Of a stretch of DNA of 45,326 nt, positions 10,742 to 45,326 are shown one piece after another. Numbering within the stretch: position 1 is the first letter of the stretch; the number at the start of each line of letters is the position of its first letter. Position numbers and translations under genes: made by a program. The notes beneath the pieces were generated by a model that saw only the letters and a program-made list of their open reading frames with translations, was not told the DNA's origin and did not search any database. This stretch comes from Erysipelotrichaceae bacterium (GTDB lineage Bacteria; Bacillota_I; Bacilli_A; Erysipelotrichales; Erysipelotrichaceae), in contig JAFZDT010000015.1 of NCBI GenBank assembly GCA_017561055.1, forward strand, positions 1 to 45,326, read 5' to 3'.

Positions 10742-11096
10742 GGGGGTGTCATGGTTTCGACAGGGTGACGTTGGATTTGGGCTGCAGTGGTGTGACTACC
10801 TAAAGGTCAACAAAAAATAACTGGAAACAATCAATTAAGTTTCGCTGCATAGTTAGCTCGCCGATAGAGCCAGCAGTCGTCTAGATAGGTTTGCCTTGGG
10901 GCTTATCATAGGCGCAAGATACTGAGGATAAGCGTGTTATATGGCTTCGGATATACCACGACGAAAATCTCACGAAGGACCATATATTTTCTGCTGTTTG
11001 TCACAGGGTATATGTGTTATCTTGATAAACTAAACTGTAGACGCCTGAATGTGGGACTCATTTTGGACAGGAGTTCGACTCTCCTCACCTCCACCA
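10742..11096 (+). ncRNA. ssrA: tmRNA (transfer-messenger RNA)
   Basis: tmRNA rescues stalled ribosomes with SmpB and EF-Tu. The 5' end GGGGGTG pairs with CACCTCC before the ACCA end (11093-11096), giving the tRNA-like acceptor stem. GGTTTCGACAGGGTGACG is the diagnostic 5' segment, and GTTCGACTCTCC is the T-arm. The length of 355 nt is normal. One open frame in the mRNA-like part ends in TAG at about 10852 and reads GQQKITGNNQLSFAA if the resume codon is GGT; the end of the tag is firmer than its first residue. The ssrA 3' end is an integration site here: copies of its last bases recur at 14.0, 15.7 and 20.1 kb. Confidence 0.96.
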
Positions 11097-25299: not shown

Positions 25300-25410
25300 T
25301 GACTATTCTTTCCTCATCTTCCAGATTGCTCTGTAGGATTTAGCACCTTGTAATAACAGGTTGCCGGGTTTCATAGGGCCTATCCCTCCACCACTCTTGA
25401 TAAGGTTTTT
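25300..25410 (-). promoter_or_regulatory. SAM-I (S-box) riboswitch
   Basis: Read on the minus strand, the leader contains CTTATCAAGAGTGGTGGAGG, then the conserved CCCTATGAAACCCGGCAACC, and closes with AGATGAGG. These are the core S-box elements (P1 strand, kink-turn region and SAM-binding core). It controls metK by SAM-dependent termination. Confidence 0.95.
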
Positions 25411-31590: not shown

Positions 31591-32052
31591 CTATGATTCA
31601 TTTATGGTAAATAATTGAATGTAGAAATCGTAGGCTTTTTCACATTCTTCATAAGAAGTACTTGTTTCATTCATTAAAAACTTTACTGCTTCTTCTTTAG
31701 AAGGGAAGGATTTTAGAATGGTTGTTACTTCAGATATTCTATCTAATGCCATACTGAATTGTTCAAATGTAATATTCTTATCGCTTAAACAGTACAGTTT
31801 ATACTTTAACATTTCCATAAGATTGTTATTTGAGTCATCAACTAATCTTTCTCCAGCAAATAGTTCATTAATAGATATATTAAGAATTTTGCATAGAGGC
31901 TCATATAAAGAAGAATCGGGCAAACAATTTCCATTTTCCCATTTAGAAACTGATTTGTTTGTTGTGTTTAACATACTAGCAAGTTGTTCTTGGGTAATGC
32001 CTTTTTCTTTTCTACATTGTGCAATGAATTTACCAATGTTGATTTGATTCAT
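31591..32052 (-). CDS. XRE-family transcriptional regulator
   Basis: The 153-aa product has an N-terminal XRE helix-turn-helix (GKFIAQCRKEKGITQEQLAS followed by MLNTTNKSVSKWENG, residues ~5-45). A C-terminal ~80-residue helical region probably mediates dimerisation. AGGAGG stands before the ATG at 32052. An upstream in-frame ATG has no ribosome site. Targets are unknown. Confidence 0.87.
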   Translation of the reverse strand: MNQINIGKFIAQCRKEKGITQEQLASMLNTTNKSVSKWENGNCLPDSSLYEPLCKILNISINELFAGERLVDDSNNNLMEMLKYKLYCLSDKNITFEQFSMALDRISEVTTILKSFPSKEEAVKFLMNETSTSYEECEKAYDFYIQLFTINES

Positions 32053-32221
32053 AGAAGTACCTCCTTGTATCTTTATTATATAAGGAGATGTAATATATAA
32101 CACCCATTAAAAGTAGAATTCTGATAATAAAAAGTTCGAGCATATGATTTGAAGAAATATAAGTTTGATGTTAGATTATAGACAGTTAGAAAACTAACTC
32201 TTTATACGTCAAATAGAAAAT

Positions 32222-32311
32222 AAACCGTAATCAATCTAGGCGATCTCCTTTCTCTCATATTCACTAGATTGAATAGTACATGGCATGAGTACTAGAAAAT
32301 ACGGTTTTTTT
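32222..32311 (+). ncRNA. Candidate structured RNA: three-way junction with terminator
   Basis: The sequence can form three nested helices. P1 pairs AAACCGTA (32222-32229) with TACGGTTT (32300-32307). P2 pairs TCAATCTAG (32231-32239) with CTAGATTGA (32264-32272). P3 pairs TAGTAC (32274-32279) with GTACTA (32289-32294). A T-run follows P1 (to 32311). The P2 loop has CTCCTTTCTCTC, which could pair with Shine-Dalgarno sequences. It could be a small regulatory RNA or a leader of the amidase gene 57 bases downstream. I do not recognise it as a known riboswitch. The rest of the 315-base gap upstream (32053-32221) holds only a small AGTTAG/CTAACT hairpin. Confidence 0.55.
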
Positions 32312-32367
32312 CTTATTTTGGAACATAATACATCTTGTTGCATAGACTAGTATGAAAGAGGTGTTTT

Positions 32368-32937
32368 ATGGCAATCAAAATATTTGTGGATGCAGGACAT
32401 AATCCAGGAATTATTAATGCAGGAGCTAGTGTAAATGGTGTATTAGAAGCAGATGTAAATTTTAATGTCGGTAAATATTTAGGTGATATTTTAGAATTGG
32501 ATAATCGATTTGAAGTAAGGTTATCTAGAAATACAATTACAGAAGTCTTAGGGAATGATCGCAATAGTTCATTGCGTACAAGAGTAGAAATGGCAAATAA
32601 TTGGCCTGCAGATTACTTTTTAAGTATTCATTGCAATTACAACAATAATCCGAATATCAATGGTAGTGAAGTATATATTTATCGTGCAAATTCGCAAGCA
32701 CAATGGTTAGCAGAAGAAGTTTTATCTAGTTTGGTTAATGTAGTGCAAATGAATGATAACAATATTTATGTGGATCCTGATTTGTATGTGCTTCGAAATA
32801 CACGAATGCCTGCGAATTTAATTGAATTGGGATATTTAACGAATGTTAATGATTTTGAGAAATTGGTTAGTGAACAATTGTTGTATGCGATTGCGATATA
32901 TGTTGGATTGTTGCGATACTTTGGATTTTTGGAATAA
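32368..32937 (+). CDS. N-acetylmuramoyl-L-alanine amidase (Amidase_3)
   Basis: This Zn2+ amidase cleaves the MurNAc-L-Ala bond of peptidoglycan. The 189-aa product is a single Amidase_3 domain. VDAGHN gives the first His, EADVN the Glu, SIHCN the second His, and IELGYLTN the catalytic Glu. There is no signal peptide and no wall-binding domain, so export would need another route or it acts after lysis or in the cytoplasm, as with some phage-derived enzymes. GAGGTG supports the start. A structured RNA with its own terminator lies just upstream. Confidence 0.9.
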   Translation: MAIKIFVDAGHNPGIINAGASVNGVLEADVNFNVGKYLGDILELDNRFEVRLSRNTITEVLGNDRNSSLRTRVEMANNWPADYFLSIHCNYNNNPNINGSEVYIYRANSQAQWLAEEVLSSLVNVVQMNDNNIYVDPDLYVLRNTRMPANLIELGYLTNVNDFEKLVSEQLLYAIAIYVGLLRYFGFLE

Positions 32938-32963: not shown

Positions 32964-33200
32964 TTTTAAATATTTTTTAGCTAACCAAATACACAAACAG
33001 CTTCCTGCAACAGAAATGGCAATCCCACCAATGCTTAATGTTTTAGCAGAAATTCCTAAGAAACCAGCTAATAAGTTTCCTACAAATGAACCGCATACAC
33101 CAAGAATCATATTTCTTAACCATGTTCCTCTGCTATTCATAATTTCGCCAGCAATCCACCCGCATAGTGCGCCGACTGCAAGTCCGATAATTAATCCCAT
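32961..33200 (-). CDS. GlsB/YeaQ/YmgE-family membrane protein
   Basis: The 79-aa product is a small transglycosylase-associated-type membrane protein. GLIIGLAVGALCGWIAGEIM, NMILGVCGSFVGNLLAGFLG and an apolar C-terminus form about three helices rich in Gly, a family hallmark. Relatives respond to envelope stress. It starts 12 bases after the DUF1846 stop, with AGGAGG over that stop, so the two form an operon. Confidence 0.92.
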   Translation of the reverse strand: MGLIIGLAVGALCGWIAGEIMNSRGTWLRNMILGVCGSFVGNLLAGFLGISAKTLSIGGIAISVAGSCLCIWLAKKYLK

Positions 33201-33212
33201 ATAATTGACCTC

Positions 33213-34700
33213 CTAACGTTTGTGATATAACTTCTTGTGATGGTATTGAGCATCACAAGTCATGTTTACACCAAGTTTTCTAAAGATGTTCGCATCTTCT
33301 AAAGGTAAAATAACCGTTGAATGGCCTTCAGCACCTTTTAGTTTGCTTAATTGTTTCATTGCTAATTCAGCAACTGGATTTGTTGTAGCTGCGATACTTA
33401 AAGCAATTAACAATTCATCTGAATGTAATCTTGGATTATGGTTTCCTAAACAATCAATTTTTAAAGATTGAATTGGTTCAACAACACGTTTAGAAATTAA
33501 TTGTAATTCTGGATTGATACCACCTAATGCTTTTAAAGCATTTAAGATAACAGCAGCACTTGGCCCAAATAAACTAGATGTTTTACCAGTAACAATTGTT
33601 CCATCATTTAACTCAATAGCTAATGCAGGAGAACCAGTATCTTCTGCTTTTTGACGAGCAGCTAAAGCAACTTTGCGTTCATTTACATTTGTAGATGCTT
33701 GTTCCATTAGTAACTCGATTTTTTGGATAGAATCCATTTCTAAGTCACCTTGTTTATAAGAAACTAAAGCATGATAATATCTGCGAATGATTTCATTTTT
33801 ACTTGCTTGAATTGCAGCATCTTCATCTGTGATACAGAAACCAACCATATTGACACCCATATCAGTAGGTGATTTATATGGAGACTCCTCTTGAATGCGT
33901 TCAAAAATACGATTCAATACAGGGAATACTTCAACATCACGATTATAGTTAACAGCTAATTCTTGATAGGCTTCCAAATGGAATGGGTCAATCATATTGA
34001 CATCGTTTAAATCGGCAGTAGCTGCTTCATAAGCCAAATTCACAGGATGCTTTAATGGTAAATTCCAAATTGGGAATGTTTCAAATTTTGCATATCCTGA
34101 TTGAATACCGTGCTTATGATCATGATACATTTGAGAAATACAAGTAGCCATTTTTCCTGAACCAGGACCTGGTGCAGTAACAACCACTAATTGTTTCGTT
34201 GTTTCAATATATTCATTCTTTCCTAAACCATCTTCACTTACTACATAATCCACTTTTGTAGGATAACCATCAATTGGATAATGTAAATATACTTTAATTC
34301 CTTGTTTTTCTAATTGCTTTTTATAGGCAACTGCAGAAGGTTGGTTTGCAAATTGAGAAATAACTACACTACCTACATATAAGTTTAATTCTCTAAATGC
34401 ATCTAATAGACGATATACATCTTGATCGTAACTGATTCCTAAATCACTACGTGTTTTATTTTGTTCAATGCTATTAGCGCTAATGACAATAATAATTTCG
34501 ACATAGTCTGCTAATTTTGTTAACATGTGAATCTTATTATTAGGATCATATCCAGGTAATACTCTAGCAGCGTGGAAGTCATCGAAAATTTTACCGCCAA
34601 ATTCTAGGTATAATTTATGATTGAATTTACGAATACGTTCAAGGATTTTTTCTGTTTGTAATTCTAAATACTTGGTACTGTCAAATGCAATTTTATTCAT
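33213..34700 (-). CDS. DUF1846-family protein
   Basis: The 495-aa product matches the DUF1846 family, which is common in Bacillota and of full length here. Recognisable segments are [20 protein letters not shown], a P-loop-like [20 protein letters not shown], and [20 protein letters not shown] at the C-terminus. Structures of the family exist, but its function is not established. TATAAT on the minus strand at 34730-34735 is the likely -10 box. The GlsB/YeaQ gene follows in the same transcript. Confidence 0.94.
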
Positions 34701-34882
34701 ATGTTCACACCCCTATTCACAATACTCAAATTATACTAAAGGTAATTTATAAATGAAAGTGGAAAACGATTTTTTTGTTAGAAATATTTACCAATAGATG
34801 ATTGTGGATATAGAAAAATAAGAAATATATGTTGTAAATATAAGAAAAATAAGATACAATAAAGATGCAAGGAGGTAAGTGT

Positions 34883-35107
34883 ATGAAACAAATGGAAGCA
34901 AAGTTTTTACGCATGGGTGCTGGGTATGGATTTCTAGTCTTTCATGTAAGTTATGCGTTTTCTGTAAATAAGGAGGAGAAACGTTTCCTTTTACCTCAAT
35001 TTCTAAAAGGGCCGACACCAGATATGAATACTTGGGGTATTTTAACGTTAACGGATGATGATGAATTTGTTAGTTTTGAATATGATGGCAAAATGATGCG
35101 AAAATAG
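34883..35107 (+). CDS. Small tandem paralogue 1 (74 aa), C-terminally shortened
   Basis: I do not recognise the family, but this is one of three tandem relatives. All share EAKF or NAIF near the start, a hydrophobic turn, a basic NRF/PQF-type segment, P(D)M then LTLTDD, and DEFVSFEYDG. This copy ends MMRK straight after YDG and lacks the YLAL...PKE tail of the other two. AAGGAGG supports the ATG. No signal peptide or membrane helix is seen. TACAAT at 34855-34860 may be the -10 box for the group. Confidence 0.8.
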   Translation: MKQMEAKFLRMGAGYGFLVFHVSYAFSVNKEEKRFLLPQFLKGPTPDMNTWGILTLTDDDEFVSFEYDGKMMRK

Positions 35108-35122
35108 GAAAGGTGAATCATT

Positions 35123-35389
35123 ATGAAACAAAAAGAAGCTAAATTTATCCAAATGGGTGCAGGTGGACTTGGTGGTTTATTTGCGAAAACTGTATACGTA
35201 TTTGAAGTGGATGGTAGACAAGTTAAGTATAATTTCAATCGATTCTTATCAGGTGCGCAACCGGATATGAATACATTGGGCACATTAACAGTAACTGATG
35301 ATGAAGAGTTTGTGAGTTTTGAATATGATGGTGGATATTTGGCATTAATAACCAAAAAGAAACCATTAATTGAGATTCCAAAAGAATAG
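35123..35389 (+). CDS. Small tandem paralogue 2 (88 aa)
   Basis: Paralogue of the flanking genes. KTVYVFEVDGRQVKYNFNRF, PDMNTLGTLTVTDDEEF and the FVSFEYDGGYLAL region are shared with copy 3; the tail ends in EIPKE. It is predicted to be mostly beta and soluble. It starts 15 bases after copy 1, with GGAAAGG before the ATG. Unknown function; a duplicated lineage-specific gene. Confidence 0.82.
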   Translation: MKQKEAKFIQMGAGGLGGLFAKTVYVFEVDGRQVKYNFNRFLSGAQPDMNTLGTLTVTDDEEFVSFEYDGGYLALITKKKPLIEIPKE

Positions 35390-35437
35390 AGATATAATAT
35401 TTATATAGTATAGATAATGAAAGGAAAGGTGTAATTT

Positions 35438-35704
35438 ATGAAAAAAGTAAATGCTATATTTGAAATGATGAGCGCAGCAAGTATTAGTGGTTTTTTTGGC
35501 AAAACAGTATATGTGTTTAAAGTGGATGGTAAGCAAATCAAATATAATTTTAACCGTTTCCTTGCAGGAAATAATCCTGATATGCACACAGAAGGTATAT
35601 TAACTTTAAATGATCATGATGAGTTTGTTTCCTTTGATTATGATGGAGGATATTTGGCTTTAGAAAAGAGAAAACAACCTAGTATTGATATTCCAAAAGA
35701 ATAG
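35438..35704 (+). CDS. Small tandem paralogue 3 (88 aa)
   Basis: Copy 3 has exactly the length of copy 2. Shared segments are KTVYVFKVDGKQIKYNFNRF, PDMHTEGILTLNDHDEF and DYDGGYLALEKRKQP, ending in DIPKE. The N-terminus is the most diverged part (NAIFEMMSAASISGFF). GGAAAGG supports the ATG. It lies 48 bases after copy 2, and a membrane protein follows. Confidence 0.82.
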   Translation: MKKVNAIFEMMSAASISGFFGKTVYVFKVDGKQIKYNFNRFLAGNNPDMHTEGILTLNDHDEFVSFDYDGGYLALEKRKQPSIDIPKE

Positions 35705-35736
35705 TGTATTGTATATATAAGGAAAGGAGAATGAAA

Positions 35737-35958
35737 ATGAATCATAAGAAAAAGATGATAGGTCCAATTGTAGCATCGTGTTTCTTGGTTTTATATTTCA
35801 TTGTCTACTTTGGGGCTATTGTTTCAGTTGTTGATGGTATAACAAAATATTTATTAGGTATACTACCATTGGTATTTGTATTTATTATTATAAGAGTTTG
35901 TATGGAAAGAATTAAGGAAATTAAAGAGGGAGAAGAAGATGATCTTAGTAAATACTGA
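35737..35958 (+). CDS. Small membrane protein, 73 aa
   Basis: Two hydrophobic helices (GPIVASCFLVLYFIVYFGAI and YLLGILPLVFVFIIIRVCM) precede an acidic, basic-mixed tail (KEIKEGEEDDLSKY). I know no family. The ATG at 35737 is 7 bases after AAAGGAG; the ATG two codons earlier is too close to it. Its 3' end overlaps the YbjQ-like gene by 20 bases, so the pair is translationally coupled. Confidence 0.78.
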   Translation: MNHKKKMIGPIVASCFLVLYFIVYFGAIVSVVDGITKYLLGILPLVFVFIIIRVCMERIKEIKEGEEDDLSKY

Positions 35959-36253
35959 TTTTATTACAGGAAAAGAATTAGAAACGATTGGTTTGGTAAA
36001 GGGAAGCACAATTCAATCAAAACATCTTGGAAAAGATATTATGCAAGCATTCAAGATGATGGTTGGTGGTGAATTAAAAGCATATAATGAAATGATGAAT
36101 GAAGCTAGAGCTTTGGCTACTAAACGTATGGTACAAGAAGCAGAAAGTTTAGGCGCTGATGCGGTAATTAATATTCGTTATGCTTCAAGTGCTGTTATGC
36201 AAGGGGCTGCTGAAGTTATTGTATATGGTACAGCAGTTAAATTTGTTAAATAG
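35939..36253 (+). CDS. YbjQ/UPF0145-family protein
   Basis: The 104-aa product matches the YbjQ (UPF0145) heavy-metal-binding-like family. It has GLVKGSTIQSKHLGKDI near the start, the helical EARALATKRMVQEAESLGADAV, then INIRYASSAVMQGAAEVIVYGTA. These small proteins form homo-oligomers; the function is uncertain and the metal role is only by name. It overlaps the preceding membrane protein gene by 20 bases. A terminator follows at once. Confidence 0.9.
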   Translation: MILVNTDFITGKELETIGLVKGSTIQSKHLGKDIMQAFKMMVGGELKAYNEMMNEARALATKRMVQEAESLGADAVINIRYASSAVMQGAAEVIVYGTAVKFVK

Positions 36254-36278
36254 ATGGAAATATTATCCATCTTTTTTT
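36252..36278 (+). terminator. Terminator after the YbjQ-like gene
   Basis: AGATGGA-AATATTA-TCCATCT with a T-run over the stop codon. Confidence 0.85.
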
Positions 36279-36356
36279 GTGGGCATATGATTTGTATTGT
36301 GTCTTCTTATAGTGTATTCTACATAGTCAACTAAGTTGAATATAGGAGGAAAGTAT

Positions 36357-36473
36357 ATGAGTCAATATATTAAAAAAGTATTAAAAGATATAAAAAAAGA
36401 AGTTATATCTGGTAAAAATATAAATGGTGCTGAAGTTAGCGTGTTAGTGAATATTAGTAATATGATGCACTAA
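36357..36473 (+). CDS. Small hypothetical protein, 38 aa
   Basis: AGGAGG 7 bases before the ATG opens a 38-aa frame, MSQYIKKVLKDIKKEVI, then SGKNINGAEVSVLVNISNMMH. It is a basic amphipathic helix at first, ending in a more apolar part. Its own strong terminator follows 5 bases after the stop. The gene-like structure is convincing although I recognise no family; a secreted or antimicrobial peptide is possible but has no leader signature. Confidence 0.6.
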   Translation: MSQYIKKVLKDIKKEVISGKNINGAEVSVLVNISNMMH

Positions 36474-36478
36474 AAGAT

Positions 36479-36506
36479 AACATCTTGTGAAAGCAAGATG
36501 TTTTTT
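36479..36506 (+). terminator. Terminator after the 38-aa ORF
   Basis: AACATCTTG-TGAAAG-CAAGATGTT with a T-run. Confidence 0.88.
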
Positions 36507-36556
36507 ATTGGTAAAGTTTACTTGCATAAAAATTTCACAAAATTTTAACAGGGTAG

Positions 36557-36584
36557 TTGTAAACTATTAATATCATGATATAAT
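36557..36584 (+). promoter_or_regulatory. Promoter of the pyrimidine operon
   Basis: TTGTAA (36557-36562), a 16-base spacer and TATAAT (36579-36584) leave a leader of only ~25 bases before pyrB. There is no room for a PyrR-type attenuator. TATCATGATA (36571-36580) is a palindrome overlapping the -10 box and may be an operator. Confidence 0.65.
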
Positions 36585-36615
36585 ATTGACAATTTGGGCA
36601 TAAGGAGGAGATTGT

Positions 36616-37488
36616 ATGAAAAATTTGCTTCAACTTAGTACTCTATCAAAAGAAGAAATAATGGATATTTTAAACGACGCTATCAAGATGTCACAAGGTG
36701 AAGGATTGGATAGTTGCAAAGACAAAATCGTTGCGAACTTATTCTTTGAACCATCTACTAGAACTCAATATAGTTTCAATGTAGCTGAAGAAAAGTTAGG
36801 TTGTAAGGTGATTAGTTTCAATGCGGCAGCTTCTAGTCTTCAAAAAGGTGAATCTTTCTATGATACAGTGAAGACGTTTGAAAGTTTTGGAATTGATGCG
36901 GTAGTTATTCGTTCTAAACAAGATGAATACTACAAAGAATTGGTTGGAAGAATCTCTATTCCTATTTTAAATGCTGGTGATGGTGTAAAAGACCATCCGA
37001 CACAATCTTTATTAGATTTATTAACGATTTATCAAGAATATGGTAAATTCGAAGGATTAAAAATTGCGATTGTTGGGGATATTAAACATTCTCGTGTAGC
37101 ACATACAAATATTGAAGTTATGGAACGTTTGGGAATGACTTGTTATATTAGTGGTCCTGAAGAATATCGTGATGATGAATATACATATATTCCATTTGAT
37201 CAAGCAGTTGAAGAAATGGATATCCTTATGTTGTTACGTGTACAACATGAAAGACATGAAAAAGAAATGTCATTAAGTAAAGAAGAATATCATGCTCGTT
37301 ATGGTTTGACTATGGAGCGTGTACATAAAATGAAAGAGCATGCAATTATCATGCATCCAGCACCATTTAATCGTATGGTAGAAATTGCGGATGATGTAGT
37401 TGAATGCGATAAGAGTCGTATTTTCAAACAAGTAAATAATGGTGTTTATGTAAGAATGGCCGTAATTAGACGCGCTTTTGGAGGTTAA
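36616..37488 (+). CDS. pyrB: Aspartate carbamoyltransferase
   Basis: PyrB joins carbamoyl phosphate and aspartate, the first committed step of pyrimidine synthesis. The 290-aa product carries FFEPSTRTQYSFNVAEEKLG (carbamoyl-phosphate site), NAGDGVKDHPTQSLLDL, and MHPAPFNRMVEI. Slightly short for the family but complete. It heads the operon pyrB-C-carA-carB-K-D-F, the order known from Bacillus, with GGAGG before the start. No pyrI regulatory subunit gene is present. Confidence 0.95.
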   Translation: MKNLLQLSTLSKEEIMDILNDAIKMSQGEGLDSCKDKIVANLFFEPSTRTQYSFNVAEEKLGCKVISFNAAASSLQKGESFYDTVKTFESFGIDAVVIRSKQDEYYKELVGRISIPILNAGDGVKDHPTQSLLDLLTIYQEYGKFEGLKIAIVGDIKHSRVAHTNIEVMERLGMTCYISGPEEYRDDEYTYIPFDQAVEEMDILMLLRVQHERHEKEMSLSKEEYHARYGLTMERVHKMKEHAIIMHPAPFNRMVEIADDVVECDKSRIFKQVNNGVYVRMAVIRRAFGG

Positions 37489-37489
37489 T

Positions 37490-38776
37490 ATGATTCGATT
37501 ATTCAAAGATGGGAAATTATTTTATAAAGATCGCTTTCAAGATTTAGATTTCTTGATTGATGATGAAGGTAGAATTGTAATCGCTGATGCGATTGAATTA
37601 GATGATAATGATGTAGATGAAGTGATTGATTGTAGAGGCATTCATATAATGCCTGGTTTTATCGACCCACATGTTCACTTACGTCAACCTGGCTTTGAAT
37701 ATAAAGAGACAATAAAGACAGGAACGACTGCCGCTGCACATGGAGGTGTGACGACAGTTTTTGCTATGCCAAATTTGAAGCCTGTACCAGATTCTTTAGA
37801 AAATTTAGCTATTCAACAAGATGCAATTGATAAAGATGCAGTAGTAAAGGTATATCCAATTTGTGCAATTACAAAAGGACAAAAGAGTCGTTCAGAAGTA
37901 GGAGATATTGATACATTATCTCAAGCTTGTTTCTTATATTCAAATGATGGTGTAGGAGTACAAGATGAAGATACAATGCGCCAAGCAATGAAATTAGTAG
38001 AGAAAAATGATGGTGTCATCATTGCGCATTGTGAAGATGAAGATGAATTATTACCTGGTGGATGTGTTCACATGGGCAAAAAGGATAAAGAATATGGTTT
38101 AGTTGGTATCAATAGTGCTAGTGAATACAAACAAGTGCAACGTGATTTAAAACTAGTAGAAGAAACAGGATGCCAATATCATATTTGCCATATGTCTACT
38201 AAGGAAAGTGTTGAAGCTTTACGTGAAGCTAAGAAAAAAGGGTTGCCGGTTAGTGGAGAAGTAACGGTTCATCATTTATTGTTATGTGAAGATGATATTA
38301 CAGAGAATCATGGACGATTCAAAATGAATCCTCCATTACGTAGTAAAGAAGACCAAGAAGCATTAATTCGTGGTATTCAAGATGGTACCATCGAAATGAT
38401 TGCGACAGACCAAGCACCACACAGTGAGGAAGAAAAAAATTGTACAATGGATAAAGCAAAGATGGGGATTGTTTCTATTGAACGTTCTTTCGCACTTGTA
38501 TATACCTATTTAGTTAGAAAGGGAATCATTACATTAGAACAAGCAGTACGCTTAATGAGTTGTAATGCAGCAGAGATTTTCAGAATTCCAGGCGGGGAAA
38601 TTGTGAATTTTGAAAAATGTGATTTAGCTTTCTTCCATTTAAATACAAATGAAAAGATTAATGCATCTAAATTTGTATCCAAAGGAAAGAGTACACCTTT
38701 TGATAAAATGTATGTACAAGCTAAATGTGTAATGACAATTGTGGATGGAAAAATCGTATTTAGGAGGGATATTTAA
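37490..38776 (+). CDS. pyrC: Dihydroorotase
   Basis: PyrC closes N-carbamoyl-aspartate to dihydroorotate. The 428-aa product is a type I, zinc-dependent cyclic amidohydrolase: GFIDPHVHLRQPG holds the HxH metal ligands, later IAHCEDED and ICHMSTKESV give the two His ligands, and MIATDQAPHSEEEK contains the catalytic Asp. The ATG at 37490 lies one base after the pyrB stop, and GGAGG overlaps the pyrB end. It overlaps carA by one base (TAATG). Confidence 0.94.
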   Translation: MIRLFKDGKLFYKDRFQDLDFLIDDEGRIVIADAIELDDNDVDEVIDCRGIHIMPGFIDPHVHLRQPGFEYKETIKTGTTAAAHGGVTTVFAMPNLKPVPDSLENLAIQQDAIDKDAVVKVYPICAITKGQKSRSEVGDIDTLSQACFLYSNDGVGVQDEDTMRQAMKLVEKNDGVIIAHCEDEDELLPGGCVHMGKKDKEYGLVGINSASEYKQVQRDLKLVEETGCQYHICHMSTKESVEALREAKKKGLPVSGEVTVHHLLLCEDDITENHGRFKMNPPLRSKEDQEALIRGIQDGTIEMIATDQAPHSEEEKNCTMDKAKMGIVSIERSFALVYTYLVRKGIITLEQAVRLMSCNAAEIFRIPGGEIVNFEKCDLAFFHLNTNEKINASKFVSKGKSTPFDKMYVQAKCVMTIVDGKIVFRRDI

Positions 38777-39840
38777 TGAAAAGAAAATTAGTTCTTCAAA
38801 ATGGTATGGAATTTATTGGCCATGGGTTTGGAAGTTTCAAAGAAACAATTGCAGAATTAGTATTTAATACATCTGTAGTTGGATATCAAGAAATTCTAAG
38901 TGATCCAACCTATTATGGGCAAATGTTATGTATGACATATACCTTAATTGGTAACTATGGAATGATTGATGAAGATTATGATTCAAAAGTCATTGGACCA
39001 AAAGCATTAGTTGTACGTGAGTACAATGATAAGCCATCAAACTTCCGCTATACCAAGACATTAAATGAAGTATTAGAAGAAAATGATGTAGTAGGAATTA
39101 CACATGTCGATACTCGTCAATTAACAAGAGTGCTTCGTGAACAAGGTAGTATGTTAGGAATTATCTGTGACTTAGATGTAACAACAGAAGAAGCATTAGC
39201 TAAAATACAAGATTACATTGCGATTGAACATCCAGTATCACAAGTAAGTTGTCAAAAAGTATGGTATTCTCGTTGTCCAAATCCTAAGTACAATGTTGTG
39301 ACTGTAGATTGTGGTGCAGCTTATAACATGATTCGCGAATGGAATCATTTAGGTTGTAATGTAACAATCGTGCCATATAACACTAGCTATGAAAAAATCA
39401 TGGGTATGAATCCAGATGGTGTTGTGATTTCAATGGGACCTGGTAGTCCAGAAAACTGTAAAGAAGTGATTGAATTGATTCAAAAGATTCAAGGGAAAAA
39501 ACCAATGTTAGGTTTTGGATTAGGTTGTCAATTAATTGCTTTGGCTAATGGATTATCTGTTGAAAAATTAGTACATGGACATCGTGGATCAAGCTATCCA
39601 GTAAGAAATACAAAGACAAACAAAGTAGAAATTACATCACAAAATCATAGTTATGTAATTTCTAGTGGTAGTGATAACGTTCAAGTTACGTATGAAAATG
39701 TAATGGATCATACAATTGAAGGAATTGAAGTTGTTGATCAAAAATGTTTTGGTGTGCAATTCTACCCAACCAATACATTAGGAGTATCTCATGAATGTTA
39801 TCAACAATTTATTGAATATATGCAAAAAGGAGGGAACTAG
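38776..39840 (+). CDS. carA: Carbamoyl phosphate synthase small subunit with degenerate glutaminase site
   Basis: CarA normally hydrolyses glutamine and channels ammonia to CarB. The 354-aa product has the normal N-terminal domain ([35 protein letters not shown]) and the class I amidotransferase fold ([24 protein letters not shown]). The catalytic triad is missing. Where relatives have GxCLGHQ it reads GFGLGCQ, with Gly248 in place of the nucleophile Cys and Cys251 in place of the His. Where HPE is expected it reads YPT (Tyr330, Thr332). The DNA shows no frameshift, and all flanking residues are conserved. CarB should then depend on free ammonia, with CarA structural. It sits within the pyr operon with close spacing on both sides. 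Confidence 0.9.
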
Positions 39841-39842
39841 TC

Positions 39843-42800
39843 ATGCCAAGAAGAGAAGATATTAAACGTGTATTAGTGATTGGTTCTGGTCCGATTGTAA
39901 TTGGACAAGCTGCTGAGTTTGACTATGCTGGAACTCAAGCTTGTTTAGCATTAAAAGAAGAAGGATACGAAGTTATCTTGATTAACTCTAACCCTGCAAC
40001 AATTATGACAGATACAAATATTGCGGATAAAGTGTATATGGAACCATTAACATTAGAATATGTAAGCCGTATTATCCGTAAAGAAAGACCGCATGCGATT
40101 TTACCGACATTAGGTGGACAAACAGGTCTTAACTTAGCTATGCAATTAGCTAAAAAAGGTGTATTAGAAGAATGTCAATGTGAAATCTTAGGAACAAGTT
40201 TCCGTTCTATTCAAGAAGCTGAGGATAGAGAAGATTTCAAAAAGTTATGTGAACGTATCAATCAACCATGTTTGGAATCATTGATTGCTCATACAGTAGA
40301 AGAAATTGTAGCTTGTGCCAATGAAATTGGTTATCCTGTTGTACTTCGTCCAGCTTTCACATTAGGTGGAACTGGTGGAGGTTTTGCTTATAATGATGAC
40401 GATGCAAGAAGTATTGGTAAAAATGCATTAAAGTTATCACCAGTAAGTGAAGTATTAGTTGAAAAATCAATTAAAGGATATAAAGAAATTGAATTTGAAG
40501 TTATGCGTGACAAAAACGATACAGCAATCGTTATTTGTAGCATGGAAAATATTGACCCTGTAGGTGTTCATACAGGAGATAGTATGGTAGTAGCGCCTGC
40601 ACAAACACTATCTCAAAAAGAATACAATTTATTAGCAAACTCTGCTTTAGCTATTATTCGTGAATTAAAGATTGAAGGTGGATGTAACGTACAATTTGCG
40701 TTAGACCCATTCTCATTCCAATACTTCGTAATCGAAGTAAATCCACGTGTATCTCGTAGTTCTGCATTAGCATCTAAAGCTACAGGATATCCAATTGCTA
40801 GAGTAAGTTCTAAGATTGCGGTTGGTTTAACATTAGATGAAATTCAATTAGGAAAAGTATGTGCAGCATTTGCGCCTACAGTAGACTACGTAGTAACAAA
40901 AGTAGCTCGTTTCCCATTCGATAAATTTACAAAAGCGGATCGTACATTAAGTACGCAAATGAAAGCGACTGGGGAAGTTATGAGTATTGGTCGCACAATG
41001 GAAGAGTCTTTATTAAAAGCGATTCGTAGTTTGGAAATTGGTGTAGATCATTTATACTTAGAAAAATTTGATAGTTATACAACAGAAGAGTTGTTAAAGA
41101 GTATTGAAACAGCAACGGATGATCGTATCTATGCGATTGCGGAATTATTTAGACGTAAAGTAGATATGATGTTAATTAACAATGCAACAAAGATTGATGC
41201 ATTCTTCTTAGATAAGATTCATCATATTATTTCGGTTGAAGAAAAAGTAAAAGCAAATCCTAATGAAAAGTATTTACGTAAAGCTAAGAAGTTAGGTTTC
41301 TCTGATCGCTATTTAGCTAAGATTTATGGAATGACTGAATTAGAAATGTACCAATATCGTACAGGTTTAGGAATTCGTCCAGTGTATAAGATGATTGATA
41401 CTTGTGCTGGTGAATTTGATGGATATGTTCCTTATTTATATAGTACCTATGAAACTGAAAATGAATCTGTGGTTACAGATAAAGAATCAATTGTGGTATT
41501 AGGTTCAGGACCAATTCGTATTGGACAAGGAGTAGAATTCGATTATTCAACTGTACATGCGATTTGGGCAATTCAACAAGCTGGTTATGAAGCGATTGTT
41601 ATTAATAATAACCCAGAAACTGTTTCTACAGACTATTCAATTAGTGATAAGTTATATTTTGAACCTTTGTGTATTGAAGATGTAATGCATGTTATTGATT
41701 TAGAAAAACCAAAAGGTGTCATTGTGTCTTTAGGTGGTCAAACAGCAATTAACTTAACAGAACGTTTAACAAAATTGAATGTACCTATTATTGGTACCGA
41801 TCACTATGCGATTGAAAGAGCAGAAAACCGTGATTCTTTTGAAAAAGTAGTTAAAGAAACAGGTATTCCGCAACCAATTGGTCAAGCAGTAACAGATATT
41901 GAAACAGGTATCGAAGTTGCGAATAAGATTGGATATCCAGTATTGGTTCGTCCATCTTATGTATTAGGTGGCCGTGCAATGCAAATTGTGCATCATGATG
42001 AAGAATTAAGAGAATACTTAACAACGGCGGTTAAGATTGATAAAGATCAACCAGTATTAGTTGATAAATATATCAGTGGTACAGAAGTAGAAGTGGATGC
42101 TATTTGTGATGGTGTGGATGTATATATTCCAGGTATCATGCAATTGGTTGAAGCTACTGGGGTTCACTCAGGAGATTCTATGAGTGTATATCCTCCTTAT
42201 TCATTAAGTCAAAAAGTAAAAGATACGATTGCGGATTATACAGTGCGTTTAGGTTTAGCAATTGGCATTAAAGGATTATTTAATATTCAATTCATTGTGG
42301 ATTCTAATGATGAAGTGTCTGTAATTGAAGTAAATCCTCGTTCAAGTCGTAGTGTTCCATTCTTATCTAAATCTAGTGGAATTCCTATGGCTAATATTGC
42401 GACAAAAGTAATGTTGGGACAATCTTTAAAAGAACAAGGTTATGGCACAGAAGTTATGCCTGAGAAGAAACGTTTCTATGTTAAATCACCAACTTTCTCA
42501 TTCTCTAAATTACATGGATTGGATACTTACTTGTCTCCAGAAATGAAATCTACAGGGGAAGCAATTGGCTATGATGATACATTGAATCGTGCGTTATATA
42601 AGTCATTACAAGCAAGCAATTTACGTGTAGTGAACTATGGTACAGTGTTTGTGACTGTTGCGGATGCGGATAAAGAAAGAGCGTTACCATTAGTTAAACG
42701 TTTCTATGATTTAGGATTTAATATTGAAGCGACTTCTGGTACAGCAACTGCATTGAAAGAATATGGTATTCGTACACGCGTAAAACAAAAGATTTCAGAA

Positions 42801-43025
42801 AATTCAGAGGAAATTTTAGAATCTATTCGTAAAGGTCATATTACCTATATTATTAATACGGTAACACCTTCTGATAGTAAGATGTCACAAAGTAAAGATG
42901 GATATTTAATTCGTAGAACTGCGGTAGAAAATAATGTTACGATCTTTACTTCATTAGATACAGTTAATGTATTGTTGAATATTTTAGAAGAAATCACAAT
43001 GCAAGTTTCTACAATTGATCAATAG
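39843..43025 (+). CDS. carB: Carbamoyl phosphate synthase large subunit
   Basis: CarB makes carbamoyl phosphate from bicarbonate, ammonia and 2 ATP. The 1060-aa product has two homologous ATP-grasp halves. The first starts [10 protein letters not shown]-like ([20 protein letters not shown]) and the second repeats at ~550 ([20 protein letters not shown]). [20 protein letters not shown] and [20 protein letters not shown] are the paired metal-binding segments. A C-terminal MGS-like allosteric domain follows (~930-1060). Full length. GGAGGG in the end of carA serves as ribosome site. Confidence 0.97.
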
Positions 43026-43034
43026 GAGGTACTT

Positions 43035-43784
43035 ATGAAATCGATTCAAAATTATGAAGTATTAAGTAATGAGTATCTAGCATTAGATATTTATAAGATG
43101 GTATTAAAGGGAGATAGTTCATGGATTACCAATCCTGGTCAATTTGTGAATATTACCATTGAGAATGCCTATTTAAAGCGTCCAATTAGTATTTGTGATT
43201 GGGATGAAAATAGTATCACTATTATTTATAAGGTAGTAGGTTTTGGTACAAAGCAATTATCACAAAAGAAAGTTGGAGATGTGATTGAGTGTTTAGTTGG
43301 TTTAGGTAATGGTTATGATATTGAAAATATCAATGAACCTGTTCTAGTCGTAGGTGGAGGAGTGGGGGTTCCTCCTATCTATGGACTAGCTAAATCATTG
43401 GTTAAAAAGGGAGTAGATGTGACTGCGATTTTAGCTTTCAATGGTCAAGAAAATGCCTTCTACTTAAAAGAGTTTGAAGATTTAGGTGTAAAACTACATG
43501 TTTGTACAATGGATGGAAGTTTGGGAACTAAGGGGTTTGCCTCTGATGTCATGAAGAATGAAAATCTATGTGATATGTTGTATATGGTGTGTGGTAATGT
43601 ACCAATGATGCAAAGTGTATTTAAAGCAAGTAATCATAATGGCTTCTTATCGTTTGAAGAACGTATGGGCTGTGGTTTTGGTGCTTGTATGGGATGTAGT
43701 TGTAAAACGTTAACTGGTTATAAACGTATTTGTAAAGAAGGACCAGTTATGAAGAGTGAGGAAATTCTATGGACGAAAGACTAA
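43035..43784 (+). CDS. pyrK: Dihydroorotate dehydrogenase electron-transfer subunit PyrK
   Basis: PyrK carries FAD and a [2Fe-2S] cluster and passes electrons from the PyrD FMN to NAD+. The 249-aa product shows an FAD-binding barrel (LKRPISICDWDEN), a nucleotide-binding half (VVGGGVGVPPIYGLAKSL) and the cluster motif CGFGACMGCSC with a fourth Cys in KRICKEGP. AGGAGG overlaps the carB end. Its last 16 bases overlap pyrD, which shows coupled translation of the type 1B heterotetramer. Confidence 0.95.
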   Translation: MKSIQNYEVLSNEYLALDIYKMVLKGDSSWITNPGQFVNITIENAYLKRPISICDWDENSITIIYKVVGFGTKQLSQKKVGDVIECLVGLGNGYDIENINEPVLVVGGGVGVPPIYGLAKSLVKKGVDVTAILAFNGQENAFYLKEFEDLGVKLHVCTMDGSLGTKGFASDVMKNENLCDMLYMVCGNVPMMQSVFKASNHNGFLSFEERMGCGFGACMGCSCKTLTGYKRICKEGPVMKSEEILWTKD

Positions 43785-44689
43785 AAGTAAAGTTAGGGAA
43801 TTGGGAATTGGATAATCCAATTATTCCAGCTAGTGGAACTTATGGGTTTGGTTATGAATTTTGTGAGTTCTATGACATTAATATTTTAGGTAGTATTGCG
43901 ACTAAAGGGACAACATTAGAACCTCGTTTTGGAAATCCTACACCACGTATTGCGGAATGTACTAGTGGTATGATCAACTCTGTAGGATTGCAAAATCCTG
44001 GTTTGGATGAAGTTATCAATGTAGAGTTTAAGAAATTAGCTGAAGTGTTCCATAAGAAAGTGGTTGCGAATGTTAGTGGATTCTCTATTGAAGAATATGT
44101 AGAATGTGCAAAACGTATGGATGCATGTGACATTGTTGGTATTATTGAAGTCAATATTTCTTGTCCAAATGTTAAGCATGGTGGTATGAGTTTTGGTACA
44201 GATCCTAAGGCGGCTTATGAAGTGACTAAAGCGGTTAAGGATGTTGTAAAAAATAAACCAGTATATATTAAATTAAGTCCGAATGTAACGGATATTGTGG
44301 CTATTGCGAAGGCTTGTGAAGAGGCTGGAGCTGATGGTATTAGTATGATTAATACACTATTGGGTTCTCGTTTTGATTTGAAAACAGGAAAACCAATTAT
44401 TGCGAATGTAATGGGTGGATTTAGTGGACCGGCTATTTTACCAGTTGCATTGCGTATGGTATATCAAGTGTATAAAGCGGTGAATATTCCAATCATAGGG
44501 ATTGGTGGAATATCTAAAGCGGAAGATGTAATTGAAATGATGTATGCGGGGGCAACAGCAGTTCAAATTGGAGCTGAGAATTGTCGTAATCCGTATGTAT
44601 GCAAGGAAATCATTGAACGCTTACCTCAACTCATGGATGAGTTGAAAATCAATACATTACAAGAAATTATCGGGAGGGCACACGTATGA
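43769..44689 (+). CDS. pyrD: Dihydroorotate dehydrogenase, type 1B catalytic subunit
   Basis: PyrD oxidises dihydroorotate to orotate using FMN. The 306-aa product has ASGTYGFG, NSVGLQNPGLDEV, the EVNISCPNVKHGG region with the class 1 active-site Cys nearby, and GIGGISKAEDVIEMMYAGA for FMN phosphate binding. Coupling to pyrK confirms type 1B (NAD+-dependent). The start overlaps pyrK by 16 bases and the stop overlaps pyrF by 4 (ATGA). Confidence 0.95.
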   Translation: MDERLKVKLGNWELDNPIIPASGTYGFGYEFCEFYDINILGSIATKGTTLEPRFGNPTPRIAECTSGMINSVGLQNPGLDEVINVEFKKLAEVFHKKVVANVSGFSIEEYVECAKRMDACDIVGIIEVNISCPNVKHGGMSFGTDPKAAYEVTKAVKDVVKNKPVYIKLSPNVTDIVAIAKACEEAGADGISMINTLLGSRFDLKTGKPIIANVMGGFSGPAILPVALRMVYQVYKAVNIPIIGIGGISKAEDVIEMMYAGATAVQIGAENCRNPYVCKEIIERLPQLMDELKINTLQEIIGRAHV

Positions 44690-45326
44690 GAGATGTAATT
44701 ATTGCATGTGATTTTTCAACAAAGGAACAAACATTAGCATTTTTAGACCAATTTACAACAGTAAAACCTTTTGTAAAGATTGGTATGGAATTGTATTATG
44801 CTGAAGGACCAGATATGGTTCGTGAAATTAAGGCTAGAGGACATAAGATTTTCTTAGACTTAAAATTACACGATATTCCAAATACTGTATATAAAGCTAT
44901 GAAAAATGTAGCAAAATTAGGCGTTGATATGACTAACTGTCATGCGGCTGGAACTATTGAAATGATGAAAGCTGCACAAAAGGCAATTGATGAAGTAAAT
45001 CCGGAAACTAAATTAATTGCGGTTACTCAATTAACGAGTACTAGTGAACAAATGATGCAAGAAGAATTATGGATTAACCATCCTATTAATGATACTGTAC
45101 AACACTATGCGAAAAATGCGCAATTAGCAGGTTTAGCAGGAGTTGTTTGTAGTCCGTTAGAAGCACATTTAGTGCAAGAAGTATGTGGGGAAGACTTTAT
45201 GACAGTTACTCCTGGTATTCGCTTTGATGATGCTTCTAAAGGGGATCAAAAGCGTGTTACAACACCAGCTATGGCTAAAGAGATTGGTTCTCACTTTATC
45301 GTTGTAGGACGTCCTATTACAGCTGC
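44686..45326 (+). CDS. pyrF: Orotidine 5'-phosphate decarboxylase (cut by the window end)
   Basis: PyrF decarboxylates OMP to UMP. The 213 codons in the window have IACDFSTKEQ at the start, the catalytic FLDLKLHDIPNTVYKA motif with its Lys-Asp network, and TPGIRFDD plus VVGRPITAA near the phosphate-binding end. The gene continues past 45326, probably by fewer than 30 codons. GGAGGG before the ATG; the start overlaps the pyrD stop by 4 bases. pyrE, if present, would be beyond the window. Confidence 0.95.
   Translation, partial: MRDVIIACDFSTKEQTLAFLDQFTTVKPFVKIGMELYYAEGPDMVREIKARGHKIFLDLKLHDIPNTVYKAMKNVAKLGVDMTNCHAAGTIEMMKAAQKAIDEVNPETKLIAVTQLTSTSEQMMQEELWINHPINDTVQHYAKNAQLAGLAGVVCSPLEAHLVQEVCGEDFMTVTPGIRFDDASKGDQKRVTTPAMAKEIGSHFIVVGRPITA

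Follow-up and report, generated by a model that had tools for sequence, protein, structure and literature searches.

What is encoded in the short intergenic stretch between a divergent regulator gene and an amidase gene in a 45,326-nucleotide piece of Erysipelotrichaceae DNA (contig JAFZDT010000015.1; hereafter the window)? A structured RNA had been proposed here from the letters alone and tied to the amidase gene, which raises the question of whether an RNA is made and on what it would act. We consider it probable that this block gives rise to a functional RNA, whatever its form, and put at roughly 0.5 the probability that it is an independently transcribed, trans-acting small RNA (sRNA) that would block Shine-Dalgarno (SD) sequences. 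The proposal held as far as it concerned an RNA candidate with a U-tract, a loop complementary to ribosome-binding sites (RBSs) and no Rfam family, whereas the link to the amidase did not.

Predicted fold of the RNA candidate

The sequence-only reading had placed three helices of 8, 9 and 6 bp around a junction ending in a T-run, and the predicted minimum-energy structure of the + strand at 32222–32307 consists of the same helices. P1 (8 bp) joins 32222–32229 to 32300–32307 (AAACCGTA/TACGGTTT), P2 (9 bp) joins 32231–32239 to 32264–32272 (TCAATCTAG/CTAGATTGA) and P3 (6 bp) joins 32274–32279 to 32289–32294 (TAGTAC/GTACTA), with pair probabilities mostly between 0.85 and 1.0. The P2 loop (32240–32263, 24 nt, GCGATCTCCTTTCTCTCATATTCA) is pyrimidine-rich. 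The structure has a predicted energy of −25.4 kcal/mol, compared with −14.0 ± 2.8 kcal/mol in dinucleotide shuffles (z = −4.06, with none of 200 shuffles as good); with the U-tail removed, z is −3.3 and none of 400 shuffles is as good. Among 1164 99-nt segments of the window with a GC fraction of at most 0.34, five are as well folded. The fold (z about −4), together with a covariance-model match in a congener, delimits a predicted small RNA of about 95–99 nt at 32215–32313 (+).

A terminator built into this structure had also been proposed, and here the outcome is divided. The T-run that completes P1 (32305–32311, TACGGTTTTTTTC) is present and reads as a putative intrinsic terminator, and the A/U tails at 32215–32220 and 32308–32313 lengthen P1 to 14 bp; however, a scan for compact terminators returned none, and the stem is long-range and weak, being the closing stem of a branched structure of ~90 nt with only three G–C pairs. 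We infer that P1 and the T-run form a putative terminator of the candidate RNA, with uncertain efficiency. The candidate combines a stable, conserved fold with a terminal U-tract, as would be expected of an sRNA. The + strand of the block holds no plausible protein, which also counts for an sRNA.

On the minus strand, a frame of 10–20 aa ending in ...TVYFLFDV and preceded by or containing GAGAAAGGAG might be translated as a leader peptide. It is retained in both species that carry the block and has an SD-like AGAAAGGAG some 10 nt upstream of a TTG, but both substitutions between the species are non-synonymous in this frame, no minus-strand promoter or downstream gene is evident, and both the T-run and the predicted fold agree with the + strand. 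We regard translation of this frame as extremely improbable.

Conservation of the block

The RNA locus occurs in two of 273 genomes of the family, the source genome and its congener G002 (contig C13), an Erysipelotrichaceae metagenome-assembled genome from roe deer rectum (record JAFULQ010000016.1). Aligning the two defines a conserved block at 32177–32312 (+), comprising the putative promoter/operator region and the RNA, with two substitutions in 136 bp, compared with 30 differences at 176 sites of flanking intergenic DNA (Fisher P = 2e-6). Conservation begins at 32175–32177, upstream of the interval originally proposed and at the edge of a palindrome, and ends just 3' of the T-run. The genes and spacers on either side differ by 14–24% between the two species (amidase gene 14%, regulator gene 24%). 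Given this contrast, the stretch from putative promoter to terminator looks selected, consistent with local purifying selection.

The argument rests on local contrast rather than absolute identity, since the window from ~33 kb onwards is mostly more than 97% identical to the congener. Most of 33034–45326 exceeds this value whereas 30–33 kb is about 85% identical, a pattern that may reflect recent exchange or differing constraint. A SAM riboswitch in the same window (25311–25406, − strand, upstream of an S-adenosylmethionine synthetase gene) is similarly conserved, with one change in 96 positions against the congener. Neither of the two substitutions in the block is compensatory, and one abolishes the outermost P2 pair (a terminal U–A). 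Covariation thus lends the helices no support, yet with two sequences and two substitutions there is hardly any variation in which it could appear.

Distribution and family searches

A covariance model was built from both copies. It scores the congener copy, itself part of the model, at 135 bits. Beyond the two copies it found nothing at E ≤ 0.01 in the genomes of the family (273) or of the order (316), with the tighter filters applied to large sets; DNA and loop-pattern searches of these genomes likewise gave the congener alone. Weak matches in genomes G074 and G061 (about 25 bits, E about 0.09) were taken as chance, as were loop-pattern matches in other genomes with two to three mismatches. 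Side matches by blastn within the source genome (contigs C122, C12 and C188) do not share the fold and appear to be chance or coding matches. DNA and pattern searches of phage, plasmid and viral-contig collections gave no homologue. The earlier statement that the element matches no known riboswitch consensus is borne out by Rfam (release 15), in which no family matches the candidate even at E ≤ 10.

The amidase gene and its probable own promoter

The downstream gene (32368–32937, +) encodes an Amidase_3 N-acetylmuramoyl-L-alanine amidase resembling CwlC and CwlD, with no evident signal peptide; the protein is closest to the model of the spore amidase CwlD, yet falls below the cut-off of that model. 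Between the T-run of the RNA and the gene, at 32323–32349 (+) and 19–45 bases before the ATG, lies a sigmaK/E-like promoter sequence, AC-N16-CATAGACTA. In Bacillus subtilis, mother-cell lysis involves the sigmaK-controlled amidases CwlC and CwlH, and the sigmaK promoter described for Clostridioides difficile has a −35 element AC and a −10 element CATATAAT (PMC3789822). The motif CATAnnnTA occurs within 60 bases upstream of 11 of 21 amidase genes, that of the window included (0.5 expected; no single one of 300 shuffles gave more than three), and CATA lies within the same distance of 19 of the 21. Within the family, and also in some Clostridia, this −10 motif precedes CwlC/CwlD-like orthologues (loci L035–L050 and L030–L034), including orthologues that have no RNA upstream. 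Two sigma factors of the source genome resemble SigE and SigK, each scoring under the family cut-off. The amidase has the appearance of an enzyme of the spore mother cell, and most likely possesses a sporulation promoter of its own between the RNA and the gene; the promoter analysis adds a conserved sporulation-type promoter for the CwlC-like amidases of the family.

The RNA could instead be a cis-acting leader, an attenuator or riboswitch in which a signal decides whether the P1 terminator forms and hence whether transcription reads through into the amidase gene. The element lies on the same strand, 55 bp upstream of the amidase, and a three-way junction in which P1 also serves as the terminator would suit ligand control. 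Since a conserved sporulation promoter that most likely serves the amidase lies downstream of that terminator, however, the RNA is not expected to be its leader. One amidase orthologue has the RNA upstream, while the others inspected, including that of another congener, do not; Rfam offers no match; and the amidase RBS ranks only 17th of 41 for pairing with the loop. The RNA probably does not control the adjacent amidase gene, and the claimed tie fails, as far as sequence can tell, on the conserved promoter 3' of the RNA, the orthologues that have no RNA and an RBS that is not a preferred partner; the attenuator or riboswitch mechanism we judge quite unlikely.

Palindrome, putative promoters and the XRE regulator

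The upstream edge of the conserved block is an imperfect 30-bp palindrome, TATAGA-C-AGTTAG-AAAA-CTAACT-C-TTTATA (32177–32206), which is identical in the congener, folds with −7.3 kcal/mol (4 of 400 shuffles as good) and is the only exact occurrence of AGTTAG-N4-CTAACT in the window. It could be an operator for the XRE regulator within a promoter, or the 5' hairpin of a longer RNA. A putative promoter overlaps it (TAGACA-18-TATACG, 32179–32208, +), with a predicted start near 32215; the sequence is identical in both species, matches at 9 of 12 positions with a weak −10, and fails the criteria of the promoter scan. A second candidate, CTGATA-16-TATGAT (32121–32148, +), reads GTGATA-17-TATGAT in the congener.

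From the latter promoter, a longer RNA of ~135 nt might start near 32177 or upstream, with the palindrome as its 5' hairpin. For the whole block the predicted folding energy is −33.3 kcal/mol (z = −4.35), its 5' part forming a hairpin of 12 bp on its own, and the TATGAT candidate is present in both species; the stretch between this promoter and the block is nevertheless poorly conserved, and 2.1 such sites are expected by chance in the region, so that the match lies within chance expectation. We hold this longer form to be unlikely.

The divergent gene (31591–32052, −) encodes an XRE-family regulator (Pfam HTH_19/HTH_3) with an orthologue (73%) in the congener. In both genomes that carry the RNA this gene is its neighbour, and the two lie between mntR and the amidase gene. 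In a third congener (G003), a DtxR/MntR-like gene directly adjoins the amidase gene with neither the XRE gene nor the RNA between them, which suggests that the two were acquired, or lost, as a single module. The RNA was also sought beside other XRE homologues: a full-length homologue in another genus (G084, 57%) sits after ftsZ with no RNA, and the copy in G116 is truncated by an inserted recombinase-like sequence. At about 1665–2900 of locus L103, from another genus, an XRE gene is apparently interrupted by a recombinase-bearing inserted element. Elsewhere, the source genome encodes (L101:1792–2016, −) a stand-alone 74-aa protein whose resemblance to the XRE regulator is confined to the C-terminal domain, the HTH being absent. 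Upstream of the XRE gene in the window, TAACACCCATnAnAAGTAGAATT (32095–32120) is kept even in the distant G084 homologue and could be the promoter of this gene or a site of autoregulation.

The proximity of the regulator also raises a function at the level of DNA, in which the palindrome and promoter region would be bound by the XRE regulator, and the hairpins would play a subordinate part or form a terminator that insulates adjacent transcription units. The start of the palindrome coincides exactly with the start of conservation, and the divergent regulator gene lies alongside, but the conserved sequence spans P1, P2 and P3 with both loops as well as the T-run (two changes in 98 bp), which exceeds what a terminator or operator would need. 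We consider such a function rather unlikely.

The P2 loop and its potential targets

The loop displays CUCCUUUCUCUC. The 3' end of Firmicutes 16S rRNA reads ...GAUCACCUCCUUUCU, which is why the loop resembles an anti-SD sequence; the 16S 3' end pattern was sought in four congeneric assemblies and was not found. The description of a pyrimidine-rich P2 loop with CTCCTTT, complementary to RBSs, is correct for the sequence. Of the sites complementary to the loop in the source genome, 20 of 29 precede an open frame at RBS distance, which fits SD blocking, though not with specificity: matches are no more frequent than those of a reversed control pattern, and no specific target stands out. The best match in the genome is GAGAAAGGAGA (L110), which precedes the frame of a membrane-type protein at least 263 aa long; the congener has GAGAAGGGAGA (L160). 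The L110 site is compatible with pairing, but we did not adopt it because sites of this sort occur no more often than control patterns. Pairing with the neighbouring RBSs is ordinary (amidase rank 17 and XRE regulator rank 21, of 41), and neither was retained as a target.

We favour the trans-acting sRNA and propose the following course of events. A small stand-alone RNA gene at 32177–32312 (+) would be transcribed from near 32215, by a promoter overlapping the palindrome, to the T-run after P1. The product, an RNA of ~95 nt, would adopt the predicted and locally conserved three-way junction, with its large P2 loop exposing CUCCUUUCUCUC. This loop would pair in trans with purine-rich SD sequences and hinder ribosome binding. 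From its position and co-occurrence, the divergent XRE regulator would be the likeliest controller, through the palindrome, and the amidase would be a separate sporulation gene with a promoter of its own. Several points speak against this reading: the promoter matches are weak, the terminator stem is weak and long-range, the loop has no UCCC motif, there is a single homologue with no compensatory change, and the outermost P2 pair is lost in the congener.

Comparison with known regulatory RNAs

Pairing of CU- or C-rich motifs with SD sequences is an established mode of sRNA action in low-GC Gram-positive bacteria (PMC4132741, PMC3861533), and an accessible UCCC motif defines the C-rich sRNAs of the RNAIII, RsaE, FsrA and LhrC type (PMC4132741). 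Like RNAIII, RsaE/RoxS, FsrA and LhrC, the candidate is a structured RNA that ends in a U-tract and exposes a pyrimidine-rich loop capable of pairing with SD sequences. Unlike them, it has CUCCUUU in place of UCCC in the P2 loop, carries a single large loop on a three-way junction, and has no Rfam match.

The csRNAs of streptococci also pair with the start codon, in the order SD–AUG. The candidate shares with them an intergenic location and a sequence complementary to RBSs, but its CAU and CUCCUU are arranged the wrong way round for this, and there is no CiaR-type regulator next to it; the sequence comparison here is the negative Rfam scan. With three-way-junction riboswitches that have terminators, it shares a P1–P2–P3 junction near a terminator, and differs in the absence of an Rfam match, in a downstream gene with apparently its own promoter and in its absence from most orthologous loci. 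A ligand- or protein-sensing RNA, its junction-closing helix serving as terminator stem and gained with a dedicated XRE regulator in one lineage, appears very unlikely.

Lineage-specific sRNAs are common, and a discovery of this kind is routine. A literature search on gut Erysipelotrichaceae-type bacteria surfaced no dedicated sRNA study. If transcribed, the candidate would represent an undescribed sRNA family in part of one genus of these uncultured bacteria, and would illustrate a young regulator-plus-sRNA module set between two older genes. Elsewhere in the window, three tandem paralogous small genes of about 75–88 aa, with no function assigned, occupy 34883–35704, and a tmRNA gene lies at 10742–11096 (+).
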